Source: Methylobacterium tardum
GTDB lineage: Bacteria > Pseudomonadota > Alphaproteobacteria > Rhizobiales > Beijerinckiaceae
Assembly (NCBI RefSeq): GCF_023546765.1
Contig: NZ_CP097484.1
Location: forward strand, 1,615,501 to 1,679,500
Reading direction: 5' to 3'
DNA: 64,000 nt
The translations under genes and the position numbers were made by a program. The notes under the pieces are model-generated. The model searched no databases. It was not told the DNA's origin and saw nothing but the letters and a program-made list of their open reading frames with translations. Positions 43,873 through 64,000 of the stretch are shown piece by piece; positions within the stretch are counted from its first letter, which is position 1; each line of letters begins with the position of its first letter.

Positions 43873-45141
43873 ATGGCACGAACCGTTCGCGATGCCAGTC
43901 TCGATACTCGCTCGGCGCGGCTGCGGCTGCCACCTGAGCGCAAGCACTGGCGCCTGATCGAAGGCGGCCTGCACATCGGCTACCGACGAGGCCCTCGCGG
44001 AGGCGCATGGCTTGCGCGGCGTCACACCGGCGGCCGCTACGTCGAGACCGTGCTCGGTGCCTCAGACGACAAGGCAGATCCTGATGGATTGGCTGTGCGT
44101 TCCTATCGTCAGGCGATAGAGGCTGCTCGCTCATGGTGGCAGGAGGCCATACGGCGCGAAAAGCTGGGGGACTGCCGAACCAGCCCCCTGACGGTGAACG
44201 ATGCGCTCGGCGACTATTTCTCAGAATGCGAGCAGCGCGGCGCGAAGAGCCTGGGCAAGATCCGCTCAGCAGCAGCCAGCAGCATCCGAACAGAACTCGG
44301 CACGCTGCAGGTGGCTGATCTGACGACGAAGCGGCTCAAGGACTGGCACGCTGCACTGGTCACGCGATCAAGGCGTCGCCGATCATCGCGTGACAGTGCG
44401 GTCGACGAAGATGCTCTCAGATCGCGTAGGGCAACGGCGAACCGGCACCTCACAATCCTGAAAGCCGCACTGAATCACGCGTTCAAGGAAGAGGCGGCTT
44501 CGGACGATCGCGCGTGGCGACGTGTCCGGCCTTTCAAGGGCGTGGACAAGCCTTTGGAGCGCTACTTGGTCGAAGCAGAGGTGAAACGCCTCATCAATGC
44601 CGCTGGCGCCGATCCGGATTTTCGCGCCCTGGTAAGAGGGGCGATCTACACGGGGGCCCGCTATGGAGAGCTTGCCCGCATGCAGGTCGCCGATCTCGAC
44701 CTGGAAAACGGTACGCTTGCCATCAAGGTCGCGAAATCGGGCAAGCCCAGGCACGTGGTTTTGACGGCCGAGGCTGTCACCTTCCTCCGGCAGATGGTTG
44801 CCGGCCGGGCGCGCGATGCCCTCGTGTTTCAGAGGGGAGGGCGGGAGTGGCGCGCATCAGAGCAGCTCCGGCCCATGCGCGAAGCCTGCAGAGGCGCTAG
44901 CATCCAACCACCCGTCGGTTTTCATATCCTGCGGCACTCGCATGCCACGATGCTGGTCTCGCGCGGCGTACCGATGGCGTTCGTGGCGGATCAGCTCGGC
45001 CATGCCGATCTCAGGATGACCACCCGGCATTACGGTCATGTCGCCCCTGATGCGAAGGCGCAGGCAATCAGAGCCCAATTTCCATCGCTGGACGAAGAGC
45101 GCTCAACCACAGATCCAGTTTCGGCGGTATCTATTCGATGA
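43873..45141 (+). CDS. int: Tyrosine-type site-specific integrase
   Basis: A 422-aa phage/ICE-type recombinase. An Arg-rich N-terminal arm-binding region and SAM-like core-binding domain (~75-210) precede the catalytic domain with GARYGEL (Arg near 262), FHILRHSHAT (HxxR near 350), QLGHADLRMT (His) and the nucleophile in TTRHYGHV (Tyr near 386). ATG 43873 starts 136 bp inside from the tRNA-Glu remnant, the usual geometry for island integrases. Its TGA overlaps the next ATG by 4 bp. It should catalyse integration and excision at tRNA-Glu. Confidence 0.93.
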   Translation: MARTVRDASLDTRSARLRLPPERKHWRLIEGGLHIGYRRGPRGGAWLARRHTGGRYVETVLGASDDKADPDGLAVRSYRQAIEAARSWWQEAIRREKLGDCRTSPLTVNDALGDYFSECEQRGAKSLGKIRSAAASSIRTELGTLQVADLTTKRLKDWHAALVTRSRRRRSSRDSAVDEDALRSRRATANRHLTILKAALNHAFKEEAASDDRAWRRVRPFKGVDKPLERYLVEAEVKRLINAAGADPDFRALVRGAIYTGARYGELARMQVADLDLENGTLAIKVAKSGKPRHVVLTAEAVTFLRQMVAGRARDALVFQRGGREWRASEQLRPMREACRGASIQPPVGFHILRHSHATMLVSRGVPMAFVADQLGHADLRMTTRHYGHVAPDAKAQAIRAQFPSLDEERSTTDPVSAVSIR

Positions 45142-50110: not shown

Positions 50111-50128
50111 TTGTGTACCTATACACAA
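50111..50128. promoter_or_regulatory. Palindromic operator candidate upstream of hicAB
   Basis: The 18-bp sequence ttgtgtacctatacacaa has 7-bp inverted arms (ttgtgta/tacacaa) around a 4-bp centre. It lies 53 bp before the HicA start and 69 bp before the divergent small-protein start, an apt place for HicB autorepression. Confidence 0.6.
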
Positions 50129-50181
50129 GTCGAAACGAGAGAGGCGGAAATGGCGGCACACCGTATGCAGAAGGGTTGGCA

Positions 50182-50391
50182 ATGTCTGCGAAATCACACA
50201 GTCGCAAGACCCGTGATGTAATCGCGGCGCTTCATAAGGATGGCTGGAATGTCATCCGAAATGGGCCCGGAGATCACATACAGTTTAAGCACCCAATCAA
50301 ACCTGGTCGGATCTCGATAGACAACGGTGAGCCGGAAATACCAACCGGTACGCTACGTTCGATTTATCGCGCAGCTGGATGGGAGTGGTGA
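50182..50391 (+). CDS. hicA: HicA-family toxin (mRNA interferase)
   Basis: 69 aa from ATG 50182 with AAGGGTTGG upstream. RKTRDVIAALHKDGWNVIR, GPGDHIQFKHP and the C-terminal IPTGTLRSIYRAAGW match the dsRNA-binding-like HicA fold; the catalytic histidine would be the one in GDHIQF. The canonical order is HicA then HicB, as here. A hairpin lies between the two genes. It should cleave mRNA when freed from its antitoxin. Confidence 0.88.
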   Translation: MSAKSHSRKTRDVIAALHKDGWNVIRNGPGDHIQFKHPIKPGRISIDNGEPEIPTGTLRSIYRAAGWEW

Positions 50392-50469: not shown

Positions 50470-50895
50470 ATGACAAATGTTGTAATGTTCATACACGAGG
50501 AGAACGGCAGCTACGGTGCGTCCTTCCCGGACTTCCCGGGTGCAACGACGGTCGCTGGCGACCTCGACACACTCTATCGCAAGGCGGCAGAAATGCTCGT
50601 CTTCCACGTCGGCGGTATGGCCGAGGATGGCGATGACATCGCCTCTCCTCGTACGCTGGATCAGTTGCGAGCTGATCCCGCCTTTCAGGAAGACAGCGAA
50701 GGGGCGTTGATCGGCCTCGTTCGCGTCGATCTTCCCGGCAGGTCTGTACGCGTCAACATCTCCATGGAGGAGAGCCTATTGAAGCGTGTCGACCGCGCGG
50801 CTGAGGCAAGTGGTGAGAGCCGTTCCGGCTTCTTAGCTCAGGCCGCAAAGGCACGTCTAAGCACCCATTCCGGCACTACCCCTCCAGCTGAGTAG
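50470..50895 (+). CDS. hicB: HicB-family antitoxin
   Basis: A 141-aa protein. The N-terminal domain has MFIHEENGSYGASFPDFPG and an EAA-type helix, the partial RNase H-like HicB fold. The C-terminal SMEESLLKRVDRAAEASGES and FLAQAAKARL form a ribbon-helix-helix for DNA binding. It would neutralise HicA and repress the operon, plausibly at the palindrome 50111-50128. Start ATG 50470 with AGAGGATGA upstream. Confidence 0.9.
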   Translation: MTNVVMFIHEENGSYGASFPDFPGATTVAGDLDTLYRKAAEMLVFHVGGMAEDGDDIASPRTLDQLRADPAFQEDSEGALIGLVRVDLPGRSVRVNISMEESLLKRVDRAAEASGESRSGFLAQAAKARLSTHSGTTPPAE

Positions 50896-56423: not shown

Positions 56424-56801
56424 TCAGGCGCTTCGACTGACCCGCGCCGCGAACTCCCAGACAGGCACCCCCCAGGTCTGACCCGGCTTCGTCCGGTAGC
56501 CGCTGAACCGTTCGAACACGATCCGGTCGGGCTCGACGGCGGTTGCGGGGCTATCGTTGACCATCAGCGCGCCGGCATATTCCACGCGCAGGAAGCCGTG
56601 CTCCGGATGGACACCGAACAGCTGCGGGGCGGTCCAGCCGAGCCGGTGTGCCTCGGAGCCGTGCTCGCCGAGGAACGCCAGCGCGTTCTCGCGCATCGCC
56701 TTCCACTTCGCCGGCAGGAGATACCGGCACGGCGAGGCGTGCTCGGACAAGCGCTCGATCTGGTCGCGCCAGGAGGCGACGGCGGGCGGGAGGTCGGGCA
56801 T
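56424..56801 (-). CDS. Unknown 125-aa protein
   Basis: Encodes LPPAVASWRDQIERLSEHA, WKAMRENALAFLGEHGSEAHRLGWTAPQLFGVHP and ERFSGYRTKPGQTWGVPVW. Similar short proteins accompany phage or plasmid DNA in this group; the AHRLGWTAPQLFGVHP segment recalls phage-encoded primase-accessory proteins, but I would not assign a function. Confidence 0.6.
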   Translation of the reverse strand: MPDLPPAVASWRDQIERLSEHASPCRYLLPAKWKAMRENALAFLGEHGSEAHRLGWTAPQLFGVHPEHGFLRVEYAGALMVNDSPATAVEPDRIVFERFSGYRTKPGQTWGVPVWEFAARVSRSA

Positions 56802-57083
56802 GGCTGGCGGCGTAGGCCTGCTGCCTTAATGGGGTGTCACCGCGGACCGCCGGCGTCATCTTCATCCAGACACACTGCGAGGGATCGGGGGTGAGGCTGA
56901 GGAAAGTCGCTCTGTGGCAACGCTTTTCGAGTAACCTTTGATTGAGCATCCGAAGGCTTAGGGCTATCTGAAGTGAGAACGGCAGACTGGCTCGCCGGTC
57001 AGAGCTACGTGCGGAACCAGGATGATCCTGAAGGCGCAAACTAGTCAGTTCCGCTTACAAAATCGCCGACACGCGAGTGCAAT

Positions 57084-58625
57084 ATGGCCAAATCAGGTCT
57101 CTACGGCGATCGTTGGAAAGTGCTCGATAATTTGGGCGGCGGCGGCCAAGGTGATGTCTACCGCGTCACAGATACGACTGGCGAGTTTGCTGGAGAATAT
57201 GCATTAAAGCGCTTGAGAGATCTGAGAAGGTTGGACCGTTTCAGGAACGAGGTTGAGGCGCTTAAGCGGCTCGATCATGATCATATCATTAAGTTGATCC
57301 ATTCGTCCGATTTGCAGTCGGAGGGCGATGACCAGAGACATTTCCTTGTAATGCCAATAGCAGCTGAGCGCGATGCAGAAAGGCGCTTGCCAATATTTAC
57401 TGGCAGTATTGAAAATACTGCAAAAGTGGGACTGCAGATCGCGAAGGCTTTGCACGCCGCTCATGGGCAGAAAGTTATCCACCGCGACGTCAAGCCTGCC
57501 AATATACTATTCCCTGATCAATCGCTTAATGCATGGCTAAGTGATTTCGGCATTTGTCACCTTGAGAAAGAAATCAACGATACCCCTTTCGGGGATGTGA
57601 TGGGACCGCGGCGCTTTGCTGCGCCTGAGATTGAGGCCGGTAGGGCGGATGAAGTGCCTCCCGACGTGGATGTTTACTCCCTAGGACAGACATTGTTCTA
57701 TCTGCTAAGCGGCGGACGTACTTTCCATCGAGAGGAAGTCAATTCTACCAATTACGACGCATCATTCCCGGCCGGTGAGCAGAGCGAGCTGCTTCGATCG
57801 CTTTTATCCAATATGGTAGCGCTTAGAGGTCATCGCATCGATAATATGGGAGATGTCGTATCTCGTTTAGAGCGTGTCATCTCTTGGAATGAGGAAGCTA
57901 GAACTTCCGGTGTATCGGCCGGCCTACAAGGTGCGATCCTTGCCGCTAGGCGTAGAGTTCAGGAGGCCAATAAAAATCACGACGACGCTCAACGTCGGCG
58001 AGAGCTTTACGACGGGATGCGTAGACGTGTAATTGATAGCATAAAAGACACTGTAAAAAGTCCGATGGTTGCTGCGGCCTCTTTGATTTCTGAAGGCGGC
58101 GAACTGACGGCGACAGTTGAGGAGACTGGGTCGGCAGCGTTCAACATCGCTTTCGGCCGGTTGACGATGAACCCATTTCAATCTTGCAATATCACTACTG
58201 CGCATGCGAGACGCCCGCACAAGATTAGCCAACTTCAATTTTGGTTGTGCTCTAAGAGGGTGATGCGGGTAGTGATAAATCAAGGCGCCGGGCGATCCGC
58301 TTTCGATAGCGAGCCAGCCGATGAAGAATTGGTGCTAATCCCGATATCGCTCGTTACTTACAAGGGAGCTCCGCAGAAGTCATACGCGGCTTTTGGTTTC
58401 GAGCATCCAAAGATACCAATGGTTGTTCAAAATCACAATCTTATTGTTGATACACAAAGTCTCTATGGATGGCAGAGACAACCCGTTTCCCAGAACCAGC
58501 CAATCAATGTTGCTATGCTAGAGTTCAAATTATCCGACTGGCCAGAGAAGCAGACCGATGTCATAAAACACGTAGACTCGGTCATAGCAGTATTTATTGA
58601 GCAAAGCTTCGCAGATAACGGATAA
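57084..58625 (+). CDS. Ser/Thr protein kinase with novel C-terminal domain
   Basis: A 513-aa protein with a complete Hanks-type kinase domain (~10-275): glycine loop LGGGGQGDVYRV, K42 in YALKRL, E56 in FRNEVEAL, VIHRDVKPANIL (HRD 133-135), SDFGICHL (DFG 154-156) and FAAPEIE (APE 180-182). A charged helical linker (~275-340) leads to a ~170-aa beta-rich C-terminal domain without a membrane span or known repeat. GC content is well below the island average, so it was acquired separately. No cognate phosphatase or FHA gene adjoins. Cytosolic eukaryote-like kinases in islands often belong to anti-phage or abortive-infection systems; this is an inference. Confidence 0.9.
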   Translation: MAKSGLYGDRWKVLDNLGGGGQGDVYRVTDTTGEFAGEYALKRLRDLRRLDRFRNEVEALKRLDHDHIIKLIHSSDLQSEGDDQRHFLVMPIAAERDAERRLPIFTGSIENTAKVGLQIAKALHAAHGQKVIHRDVKPANILFPDQSLNAWLSDFGICHLEKEINDTPFGDVMGPRRFAAPEIEAGRADEVPPDVDVYSLGQTLFYLLSGGRTFHREEVNSTNYDASFPAGEQSELLRSLLSNMVALRGHRIDNMGDVVSRLERVISWNEEARTSGVSAGLQGAILAARRRVQEANKNHDDAQRRRELYDGMRRRVIDSIKDTVKSPMVAAASLISEGGELTATVEETGSAAFNIAFGRLTMNPFQSCNITTAHARRPHKISQLQFWLCSKRVMRVVINQGAGRSAFDSEPADEELVLIPISLVTYKGAPQKSYAAFGFEHPKIPMVVQNHNLIVDTQSLYGWQRQPVSQNQPINVAMLEFKLSDWPEKQTDVIKHVDSVIAVFIEQSFADNG

Positions 58626-58637
58626 GCGCGAAGATGT

Positions 58638-58916
58638 TTATCGTCCTTGATGGTCCAAGGAATCGATGTCGTCGTGATTGCCGGCCAGCACAACGCTGAA
58701 ATGCTCGTGTGCGATTTGGATCATAGCAATACGAACTCGGAAGTTTGCGCGAATGGAGTAGAAGCGGGAGTTTTTTCGCTTCTTGAAGTGGAGCGCAGCA
58801 TGCGAAGGATCGCGCCTGAAAAGATCTAAAGCCGTCTCTATGAAATGCTGATCAATTTCTGAATGGCGGCCTACAGAGCGCCAGAAACGCTTTGTGAACT
58901 CAAGAGTTATTGCCAC
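58638..58916 (-). CDS. RelE/ParE-like toxin candidate
   Basis: A 92-aa protein: LEFTKRFWRSVGRHSEIDQHF, FIETALDLFRRDPSHAALHFKK, FYSIRANFRVRIAMIQ, VVLAGNHDDIDSL. The helix-helix-four-strand order with a basic strand ending and a C-terminal HDDI fits the RelE/YafQ superfamily. It overlaps the end of the upstream 205-aa gene by 17 bp and is convergent with the kinase (12 bp between stops). If it is a toxin, the coupled partner is the expected antitoxin. Confidence 0.68.
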   Translation of the reverse strand: MAITLEFTKRFWRSVGRHSEIDQHFIETALDLFRRDPSHAALHFKKRKNSRFYSIRANFRVRIAMIQIAHEHFSVVLAGNHDDIDSLDHQGR

Positions 58917-59517
58917 CGACGCGCGCCTTGAATAGATCCTTCAAGCTCTGATCGGGCGAGAGCACATCTCCTGACGGCTGCATGTCTGGGTCGATCTGAG
59001 ATTGTATGTCGAGCAACAGGTAAAATTGTTCGACCGCCTCTTCGTGACGCAAGGCGTAGGGCTTCAAGAGATAAGATAAAGCAAGCCGCACCCAATCTTC
59101 GGGGCGTTCGGAGTTAGAAACCTCCTGAACCAAGCCTTCGATGATACCCCCAACGGCATCGTGGGACGCGCGGATGACTTTTGCCTTCCGATCGGCCTCT
59201 GCGGTCAGCCGTCTGAGAGTGCCTAGAAGCGTCGAAGTGGGTTCGGCGCCCTGAATTACGGCCTCAAGCCGGCGCAGCCTCTGCCAGTGAGGCGCGTTCT
59301 CAAGCTTGATCTGCTCTTGATCGGCAAGCCAGGTCTGCTCGAGCTGGCGCATCAGCGCCGCACGATCCCCGAGGCGATCGACGATATCGATGACAGCTGC
59401 GGGAGACTGAGGCGGCTCTTCCACCAAAGCTGCCTCCACGTCCTCAAGCACCTTCCGAAGCGCACTCACGGCTCTCTCCTCAGCCCCTAATATGCGTGAC
59501 AGTCCCGGAGAAGCCAA
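58900..59517 (-). CDS. Unknown helical protein, coupled to RelE-like gene (possible antitoxin)
   Basis: 205 aa, almost wholly helical: ILGAEERAVSALRKVLEDVE, ALMRQLEQTWLADQEQIKLE, RLEAVIQGAE, LRRLTAEADRKAKVIRASHD, LALSYLLKPYALRHEEAVEQFY. It has no helix-turn-helix or ribbon-helix-helix that would mark a classical antitoxin and is more than twice the usual antitoxin length. Gene order (partner first, overlapping the RelE-like gene) still fits a toxin-antitoxin operon. Confidence 0.65.
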   Translation of the reverse strand: MASPGLSRILGAEERAVSALRKVLEDVEAALVEEPPQSPAAVIDIVDRLGDRAALMRQLEQTWLADQEQIKLENAPHWQRLRRLEAVIQGAEPTSTLLGTLRRLTAEADRKAKVIRASHDAVGGIIEGLVQEVSNSERPEDWVRLALSYLLKPYALRHEEAVEQFYLLLDIQSQIDPDMQPSGDVLSPDQSLKDLFKARVGGNNS

Positions 59518-59587
59518 CTGCTTGCACTGGCCCTCACATAGGGCCCTTGTTAGAAGGCTTGTGCGAGGTGGTCGGGCGAGCCTCAGG

Positions 59588-59842
59588 TCATTGCGTCGGT
59601 GGAGCGTGCGGCTCGCCTAATCCGTGAATGGGACCCACGCCCTTCAACGGGAAGAGCCGCACCTCGGTCGTCGGTCGCAGCCGAATAGGCGAGGTTGTGA
59701 CGCAGATCGTCGGTAGGCAGCCGAAGTCTTCCGATTGGGGCGGCATGCGAGGCCGACGGCGGCGCTGCGGATCGCGATAGCTGCACCAGGGCGGCACTGA
59801 GGCCGTCCAAGGCACCGGCGCTGAACTGGCTGTGACATTCAA
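59588..59842 (-). CDS. Doubtful 84-aa ORF
   Basis: The minus-strand frame ends with EVRLFPLKGVGPIHGLGEPHAPP, which looks protein-like, but the N-terminal half is Arg/Pro-rich and another frame (59583-59870) overlaps it fully. No ribosome-binding site is clear. Listed because the 490-bp stretch 59518-60005 otherwise holds nothing. Confidence 0.28.
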   Translation of the reverse strand: MNVTASSAPVPWTASVPPWCSYRDPQRRRRPRMPPQSEDFGCLPTICVTTSPIRLRPTTEVRLFPLKGVGPIHGLGEPHAPPTQ

Positions 59843-60005
59843 GGTTTTGGCCCCGCCCCGATCTGCTCATGGGGCGGGGGAGCGTCCGATCTCACCAGCA
59901 TGGGCCGAGCCGATACGCGACGCGGCTTGAGGGTTGAGCCGCCGCCGTGGGTTAGCGGAAGGGCAGCACTGACAGCCAAGGTGTCAGCCGGTACGCTGTC
60001 GGCCG

Positions 60006-62935: not shown

Positions 62936-63070
62936 CAACATAGAGGCCACGTGTTTATTGTCATTTATCCTGCGATTTTCAGGGGATAAACCAATAACGG
63001 CTGATTTCATGGGTGACATCATGGATTTTAGGTTGTCAGCATAGCGTGGGGTGTTCAACTTCAGGCTTTC

Positions 63071-64000
63071 GATGGCTTCGCTTGTAGCTCCAATCCTCTT
63101 TTCGCAACGGTTCAACATATCCCCGAGCGCCCTCGACGCTGCAGGTCTGCTAGATCCAATCCTAAACGCCGATACTAAGCTATTCATAGATCCTTTGTTA
63201 CTTTCATCAAGTAACAATGACACAATGCGCAGAAATGGCTTCGATGCGTTGAAGGATAGGTTCAACAAGATAGTTCGACTTGTTATTGCAAGTCAGCGCA
63301 GAGGAGATGTTGCTTGGCGAAACGCGGCGCGTCTTCTGGATCTCAATGAAAGACCTGAAACCGGACTTGGATATGGCGGCGCGAGCACAAGTGGTGCCTC
63401 AAGGCCAGATGACATCAGACAGAAAGTCCTGGCAACAGCGAAGGAAATCACTCAACTTGGCGAAACGGATCCCCAAATTATATCCTTGATGGGGATGTTT
63501 GAGGATGGAATCGGCCCGGATACCATAAGCGACCTTACAACGAATTCCATATTGCCTGTTCTGTGCAGTTTGACAGAAGATTTCTGCCGGTCGCAGAATG
63601 TACCGATAGAAAATTTTCCAAAATATGATGCGAACTTACCCGAAAACCCTCTTCGTCCTGGGACACCAGTAATATTAGTACCAAAAGATATATTGCGCGA
63701 ATTACCTCTTGCTGTGGATTGGTCTGATGTTTCTCGTGTTATTCTGGAAATTGAGGAGATTCGTGACTCCTTCAACAAGTTTCTCGGTCCTATGCTAGAG
63801 GTAACAGTTCGAGATAGAAAACGTGCGCTAAGGGCTGCTACCCTCGAAAATCTAAAGAACTTTCAGGATGCATTTTCAGTTGTGCTGGAGTCGAGTGATA
63901 ATTACGACCCGAACGCCGATGTATTAAATTTTTATAACTTCAGAAAAATTTTAAACTCTAATCTTTCGCAATTTGCGGGCTCGGTTACGCCTGCGGCTAC
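63071..64000 (+). CDS. Unknown AT-rich gene, partial (runs off right edge)
   Basis: From ATG 63071 the frame stays open to the window end, at least 310 codons, on the plus strand. GC content is far below that of the island. The protein begins LVAPILFSQRFNISPSALDA, has a DP-rich stretch (LLDPILNADTKLFIDPLLLS), DVAWRNAARLLDLNE, TGLGYGGASTSGAS and FEDGIGPDTISDLTTN, then a helical part. I do not recognise it with certainty. GLGYG and GIGPD-ISD patterns with AT-rich DNA inside an island are reminiscent of uncharacterised defence-linked proteins. There is no signal peptide or membrane span. Confidence 0.7.

Follow-up and report, generated by a model that had tools for sequence, protein, structure and literature searches.

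The Hanks-type kinase gene and the RelE-fold toxin pair that lie side by side in Methylobacterium tardum are probably two independent mobile stress or defence modules sharing one islet, separate in origin and probably also in action. The kinase is a rare, mobile gene whose relatives have defence-type neighbours, and the pair is indicative of a toxin-antitoxin group, seen repeatedly, that combines a RelE-fold toxin with a long partner whose C-terminus bears a conserved signature. Both reside in the window, the whole 64,000-nucleotide stretch of DNA that was analysed (contig NZ_CP097484.1), which includes the following features.

57084-58625, + strand: kinase ORF, Hanks-type Ser/Thr, cytosolic, 513 aa (Pfam match and motifs)
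57117..57752, + strand: kinase domain, residues 12-223 (PF00069, E 8.1e-31; catalytic motifs)
58104..58625, + strand: C-terminal region of the kinase, residues 341-513 (no Pfam match over cut-off)
58638-58916, - strand: RelE-fold toxin, 92 aa, GTG start
58900..59469, - strand: long partner of the toxin, a putative antitoxin of 189 aa (start GTG 59469)
58900-59517, - strand: longer ORF reading of the partner, 205 aa from TTG
56900..59848 (ends approximate): AT-rich insert holding the kinase and the toxin pair, delimited by the flank spacing in other loci
56424-56801, - strand: left neighbour, 125-aa gene outside the insert, with more copies in the genome and genus
59849-59927: right neighbour, repeated element of ~79 bp, 11 copies in the genome including this one

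All three genes are confirmed at the positions given by the initial annotation, with 12 bp separating the stop codons of the convergent kinase and toxin genes (ORF check). The partner and toxin ORFs overlap by 17 bp, with the partner upstream and the toxin second, which is the gene layout of type II toxin-antitoxin systems. The overlapping partner had been described as a 205-aa helical protein. The overlap is correct, but a start at GTG 59469 (189 aa) appears more likely from the local sequence than one at TTG 59517 (205 aa), and the helical character is seen only by residue propensity under a crude Chou-Fasman rule (50% H, 24% E). An AGGAGAG motif lies just upstream of GTG 59469, and the public record P0001 begins the partner at the same codon. 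At 189 aa, the partner is indeed longer than the short antitoxins that are usual. Records P0001 (partner) and P0003 (kinase) each represent four contigs, and at least one further assembly appears to carry both proteins. Promoter-like sites number 1 versus 1.8 in shuffles, and terminator-like sites 6 versus 2.9 (sd 2.0), neither count being decisive.

The kinase gene is AT-rich, as originally described (GC 0.498 versus 0.649 for the window), and GC is 0.491 for the toxin and 0.582 for the partner. An AT-rich import is likewise supported by comparison with ten loci in the genus; both flanks lie on a single contig in seven of these, and the other three have just the left flank. The gap between the 125-aa gene and the repeated element is 35-117 bp in five of the ten (L113, L114, L116, L117 and L120), 690 bp in L115 and 546 bp in L119; at L118 the repeated element follows a different gene, and L121 and L122 have no match to it. 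Beyond these ten, both flanks lie ~66 bp apart at G027:C53. In the window, the corresponding gap is ~3 kb of AT-rich DNA that holds the kinase and the pair. Many genomes of the genus carry the repeated element, in several instances immediately next to the 125-aa gene, and with 11 copies in a 6.9-Mb genome the adjacency of the two flanks is unlikely to arise by chance. The L119 gap is filled with GC-rich DNA (0.672), and that of L115, in a sister genome, with a different AT-rich insert (GC 0.474). The latter encodes a 183-aa protein (L115:1343-1894) that is HEPN-like by eye only and has no Pfam or PADLOC match. The two ends of the insert share no exact 10-base repeat in either direct or inverted orientation, and no tRNA genes are present within the window.

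Other portions of the window have a mobile character of their own. A phage-type integrase gene (43873-45141, PF00589) precedes small genes and the two members of a HicA/HicB pair (50113-50391 and 50470-50895), and the segment 43873-50895 is probably an integrated element that ends ~6 kb or more to the left of the kinase. At the right end of the window is a second AT-rich stretch (63051-64000), in which a gene begins that continues past the window (L162:1552-3006). Its 484-aa ORF has a partial match to the PADLOC model PDC-M36A (E 6.5e-12, residues 36-220), and so there may be another defence-type gene ~3.5 kb from the pair.

The kinase displays the catalytic motifs of a Hanks-type enzyme and can be considered catalytically complete, as had been proposed: the glycine loop (GGGGQG, 18-23), K42, HRD (133-135), DFG (154-156) and APE (180-182) are intact, and residues 12-223 match Pfam Pkinase with an E-value of 8e-31. 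Its assignment as cytosolic is borne out by hydropathy, which detects no membrane stretch (the highest 19-residue mean is 0.9). Outside residues 12-223 there is no Pfam match over cut-off, so the C-terminal domain is as unrecognised as the initial annotation had reported. The motif F..S.WP....D, close to the C-terminal end, is common to all four aligned relatives (alignment A1), and a structure model built from two sequences (pLDDT 32.9) gives no fold assignment for the C-terminal region.

Relatives of the kinase are sparse. They occur in two of 111 genomes of the genus, the source genome included (E 1e-30), in one of 397 genomes of the order, which is the source genome itself (E 1e-40), and in 4 of 72,556 plasmid records, among which three share one identical Rhizobium protein. 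No relative was found in phages at E 1e-20 or among the 50 viral-contig stretches that fit the search pattern. A scan with the generic motif HRD.KP.N, which gives no family-specific kinase count, returned only general kinases among the 80 matches listed; none of these aligned beyond residue 290, and no toxin or partner match accompanied them.

The company kept by these relatives agrees with the defence link that had been suggested for the kinase. In Methylobacterium sp. J-077 (G083, record P0004), a full-length relative with 75% identity lies downstream of a DUF2513 gene and adjoins genes that by eye resemble phage tail and terminase genes; it is likewise convergent with its downstream neighbour, which is a different gene. 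The Rhizobium plasmid kinase is flanked by a RelA_SpoT-domain protein and, on the opposite side, by matches to PD-Lambda-4_A (E 1e-228) and LmuB (E 5e-127). On a Burkholderia plasmid, the kinase adjoins CapH/CapP-like genes, the first of which matches RmrA about equally well, and an annotated integrase is ~6.6 kb away. Taken together, these three independent loci support a neighbourhood of defence or prophage cargo, and the kinase itself is most probably a defence-type cargo gene in its own right.

The small protein encoded opposite the kinase is confidently predicted by structure modelling to have the RelE (BECR) fold, which places it among the RelE-fold toxins. Its description as a RelE-like toxin is thus upheld by fold and not by a direct Pfam match, of which there is none; PADLOC, NCBIfam and PHROG models likewise give no match. 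That the toxin is a chance ORF can be dismissed on the basis of the confident fold model and the homologues. Some toxin relatives do match curated family models, and the toxin of the viral contig L094 falls below the cut-off of PF24732 (ParE_like). A search with the PF24732 family recovered 2 of 240 genomes, and the window genome was not among them. A profile built from four toxins (those of the window, L011, L094 and L009) matches 53 of 398 genomes of the phylum, including the source genome.

Thirty loci were fetched from the matches to this profile, one of which is the window. Among the 29 others, 18 loci contain 19 toxin frames, one of which (L143) is 288 aa long. In the remaining 11, the toxin domain resides within open frames of 691-731 aa and is therefore part of a fusion; these loci are absent from the frame count, probably as the frames run off the stretch. 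The fusion loci are L133-L136, L139, L142, L144, L146, L148, L151 and L152, and the plasmid matches H18-H22 are of the same kind. On Thermus and Meiothermus-type plasmids, such toxin-domain fusions are annotated as 3'-5' exonucleases, one of them close to brxL.

The gene directly upstream of the toxin varies considerably in length among these relatives. Five of the 18 short toxin frames (L125, L126 twice, L127 and L128) have a long partner there, and the other 13, including L140, have partners of ~66-115 aa, some of which by eye resemble Phd/YefM. Ranked by E-value, the best six non-self matches to the toxin profile all have a partner of the long class, of 174-197 aa according to which start is taken, and in the seventh, L156, the partner is short (at most 76 aa). 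The larger stretches add another long partner in L158 (187-197 aa), and L157 completes the second pair of L126 (partner 185-196 aa). L157/L126 thus carry two long-partner/toxin pairs in tandem on one contig. Long partners are recurrent but a minority among the toxin relatives. They are found directly upstream of a related toxin, with the kinase absent, in L011, L094, L125/L154, L126/L157, L127/L155, L128/L159 and L158. The partner is 165 aa in L011, a genome of the same class, and 193 aa in L094, in both cases ending at the toxin start. L009/L160, from the same genus, probably also represent a long partner without the kinase; the partner frame is in the same place and runs to 785-796 aa, with a start that is not fixed because the frame is open far upstream. 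In L094, the pair (1984-2825) lies just before a gene that by eye resembles a tape measure gene; the J-077 kinase is likewise near tail-like genes.

Detecting relatives of the window partner itself is more difficult. A search of 5.8 billion proteins returned only the partner, the plasmid collection contains none, and scans of viral contigs recovered only the already-known L094 contig. The genus search yielded one other match (G036, E 0.006), which has three internal stops and was taken as chance. There is no usable match in Pfam, PADLOC, NCBIfam or PHROGs, which makes the partner a concrete candidate for a new antitoxin type.

Pairwise comparisons nevertheless provide some indication of kinship, with the L009 partner entered as 183 aa, an arbitrary cut. 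The L009 and L094 partners are related by sequence (score 72 versus a shuffle mean of 31, 0/500 shuffles as good). Over the last 55 residues, the window partner scores 37 against L009 versus 19 +/- 3.5 for shuffles, again with 0/500 as good, and the full-length alignment does not stand out (54/500 as good). No signal is seen with the L094 partner (123/500 full-length and 129/500 C-terminal shuffles as good) or with that of L011 (420/500 and 169/500), and the match to NrS-3 is borderline (25/500 and 9/500). Since ten pairs were tested, these matches are only suggestive.

A C-terminal profile of seven long partners, in which the L009 cut is arbitrary, gives a weak match in which the window partner exceeds 4994 of 5000 shuffles (6 as good) and lies above all 163 non-member C-termini of the control set. 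The outcome depends on the composition of the profile: 66 of 5000 shuffles are as good with only the five distant rows, 199 with three rows, and 1869 with L009 and L094 only, where the window ranks 30th of 169. With full-length profiles, 36 entries stand above the window partner (eight long partners and 28 decoys), and 199 do so when the five distant rows are used. In a profile comparison, the same C-terminal stretch is aligned in register (P 0.077). By length and place, the window partner fits the group of long partners, which are ~165-197 aa and lie directly upstream of the toxin; it is regarded as a probable member. Overall, a toxin-antitoxin module with an atypical partner is the most likely identity of the pair.

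Whether kinase and pair constitute one system can be addressed by their co-occurrence. At three independent kinase loci (L003/L006, L004 and L005, with ~8-10 kb on each side), there is no toxin or partner match at E 1 (0/3), and none of ten related-toxin stretches (L154-L161, L094 and L097) contains a kinase match at E 0.01. The ten stretches measure 3.0-19.5 kb and derive from 8 genomes or records; in some, the toxin is close to an end. They include seven partners of at least 165 aa, one whose start is not fixed (L160), one of 129 aa (L097) and one that is short (L156). The initial annotation had grouped kinase, partner and toxin into a single system, and on this small sample the co-occurrence check is negative. 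Because kinase and pair occur separately in relatives, a conserved three-gene system has been dropped as the main reading.

The arrangement as two independent modules is consistent with the toxin fold, with the long partners beside related toxins that lack the kinase, with the kinase relatives that lack the pair and reside in prophage-like or defence company, and with the match of PADLOC mad6 and PD-T4-6 models to the kinase domain. It has weaknesses, in that it draws on no more than three independent relatives of the kinase and ten toxin stretches, the near-equal low GC of kinase and toxin and their single insertion site also fit joint transfer, 28 decoys outrank the window partner in the full-length profile and its C-terminal match is weak, partners are short in L156 and in 13 of the 18 short toxin frames, and the window toxin has no Pfam model. 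A variant differs from it solely in the role of the pair, which would be an addiction module that stabilises the islet, with the kinase as useful cargo and no signalling between the two. We regard this as unlikely, even though related pairs are found on their own in phages and chromosomes, in one case duplicated in tandem, and the insertion site carries other AT-rich cargo in the sister genome.

Conceivably, the three genes could instead form one system in which a kinase activated by infection phosphorylates the partner and frees the RelE-fold toxin, stopping translation and the phage. Kinase and pair share the same insert and the same low GC and lie 12 bp apart, and a kinase-gated antitoxin retains some probability because such a mechanism is real in vapKSC: in the authors' model, the kinase phosphorylates the antitoxin VapS and so frees VapC, a phosphomimetic change in VapS has the same effect, and the operon protects against a phage, although VapK activation could not be tested in that study (PMC13373217). 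In prophage Pf6, PfiA, the antitoxin of a ParE/RelE-type pair, is likewise phosphorylated by PfkA/PfkB (PMC13048266). There, however, phosphorylation neutralises the toxin, which is the reverse of the proposal, and VapK is a GHKL rather than a Hanks-type kinase. In addition, the genes in the window are convergent rather than in a single operon, and the separate occurrence at the kinase and toxin loci counts against a joint system, which we consider improbable. By analogy with VapKSC, a phage-sensing Hanks kinase that gates a long helical antitoxin and a RelE ribonuclease might have been assembled within this one islet from stand-alone modules, and the chance of this appears slim. It is highly doubtful that the kinase is a prophage-style regulator of lysogeny and defence, rather than an abortive-infection effector, as KKP kinases are reported to be in Pf prophages (PMC11341870). 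The closest kinase relative does lie in an apparent prophage, but the insert contains no second kinase or phosphatase, since it has no ORF over 119 aa besides the partner and the kinase.

With kinase and pair taken as two independent modules, a working scheme can be proposed for each. The pair would behave as a type II toxin-antitoxin module in which the long partner is produced ahead of the toxin and its C-terminal part would hold, and so neutralise, the RelE-fold toxin; upon loss of the partner, the toxin would become toxic by cutting mRNA on the ribosome, like YafQ, YoeB and RelE. The kinase would act separately as a self-contained, soluble Ser/Thr kinase of the type found in defence or as prophage cargo, like Stk2 and PD-T4-6. 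Its C-terminal region may sense infection or keep the kinase inactive, and phosphorylation of host proteins could then stop growth, a possible route to phage defence.

Among known systems, YafQ, YoeB, RelE and the PF24732 ParE_like family differ from the pair in the partner, which in the window is a 189-aa protein and not a short antitoxin. The words 'kinase', 'UvrD' and 'PF24732' are absent from the main text of a survey of RelE/ParE toxins (PMC11980606), and none of the open-licence papers listed concerns, by title, either a RelE pair with a long partner or a Hanks kinase next to such a toxin pair. The kinase recalls Stk2 and PD-T4-6 in being a soluble Hanks-type kinase with relatives in defence-type company; PD-T4-6 models of PADLOC match its kinase domain (best E 2e-36), the best of them spanning residues 1-222 only and one weaker model residues 9-324. 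Its best PADLOC match is mad6 of MADS, again via the kinase domain (E 2e-39), whereas its score with the NCBIfam MAD6 equivalog is 107.7 versus a cut-off of 460, and the scanned neighbours include one MADS match only, a marginal mad1 (E 0.0055). KKP, a kinase-kinase-phosphatase module, shares with it a Ser/Thr kinase and a prophage link, whereas two kinases and a PP2C phosphatase lie side by side in KKP (PMC11341870), and the single kinase of the insert places it outside that class. A parallel in logic is VapKSC, where a kinase is likewise combined with a nuclease-type toxin and an antitoxin of non-canonical type (PMC13373217). The components of VapKSC are a GHKL kinase, a STAS protein and a PIN nuclease in one operon, whereas the islet has a PF00069 Hanks kinase, a different partner and a RelE-fold toxin on opposite strands, and so does not belong to that system. 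If kinase and pair were coupled after all, they would constitute an independently evolved kinase gating of a toxin-antitoxin pair against phage, in which the logic of VapKSC is realised with unrelated parts.
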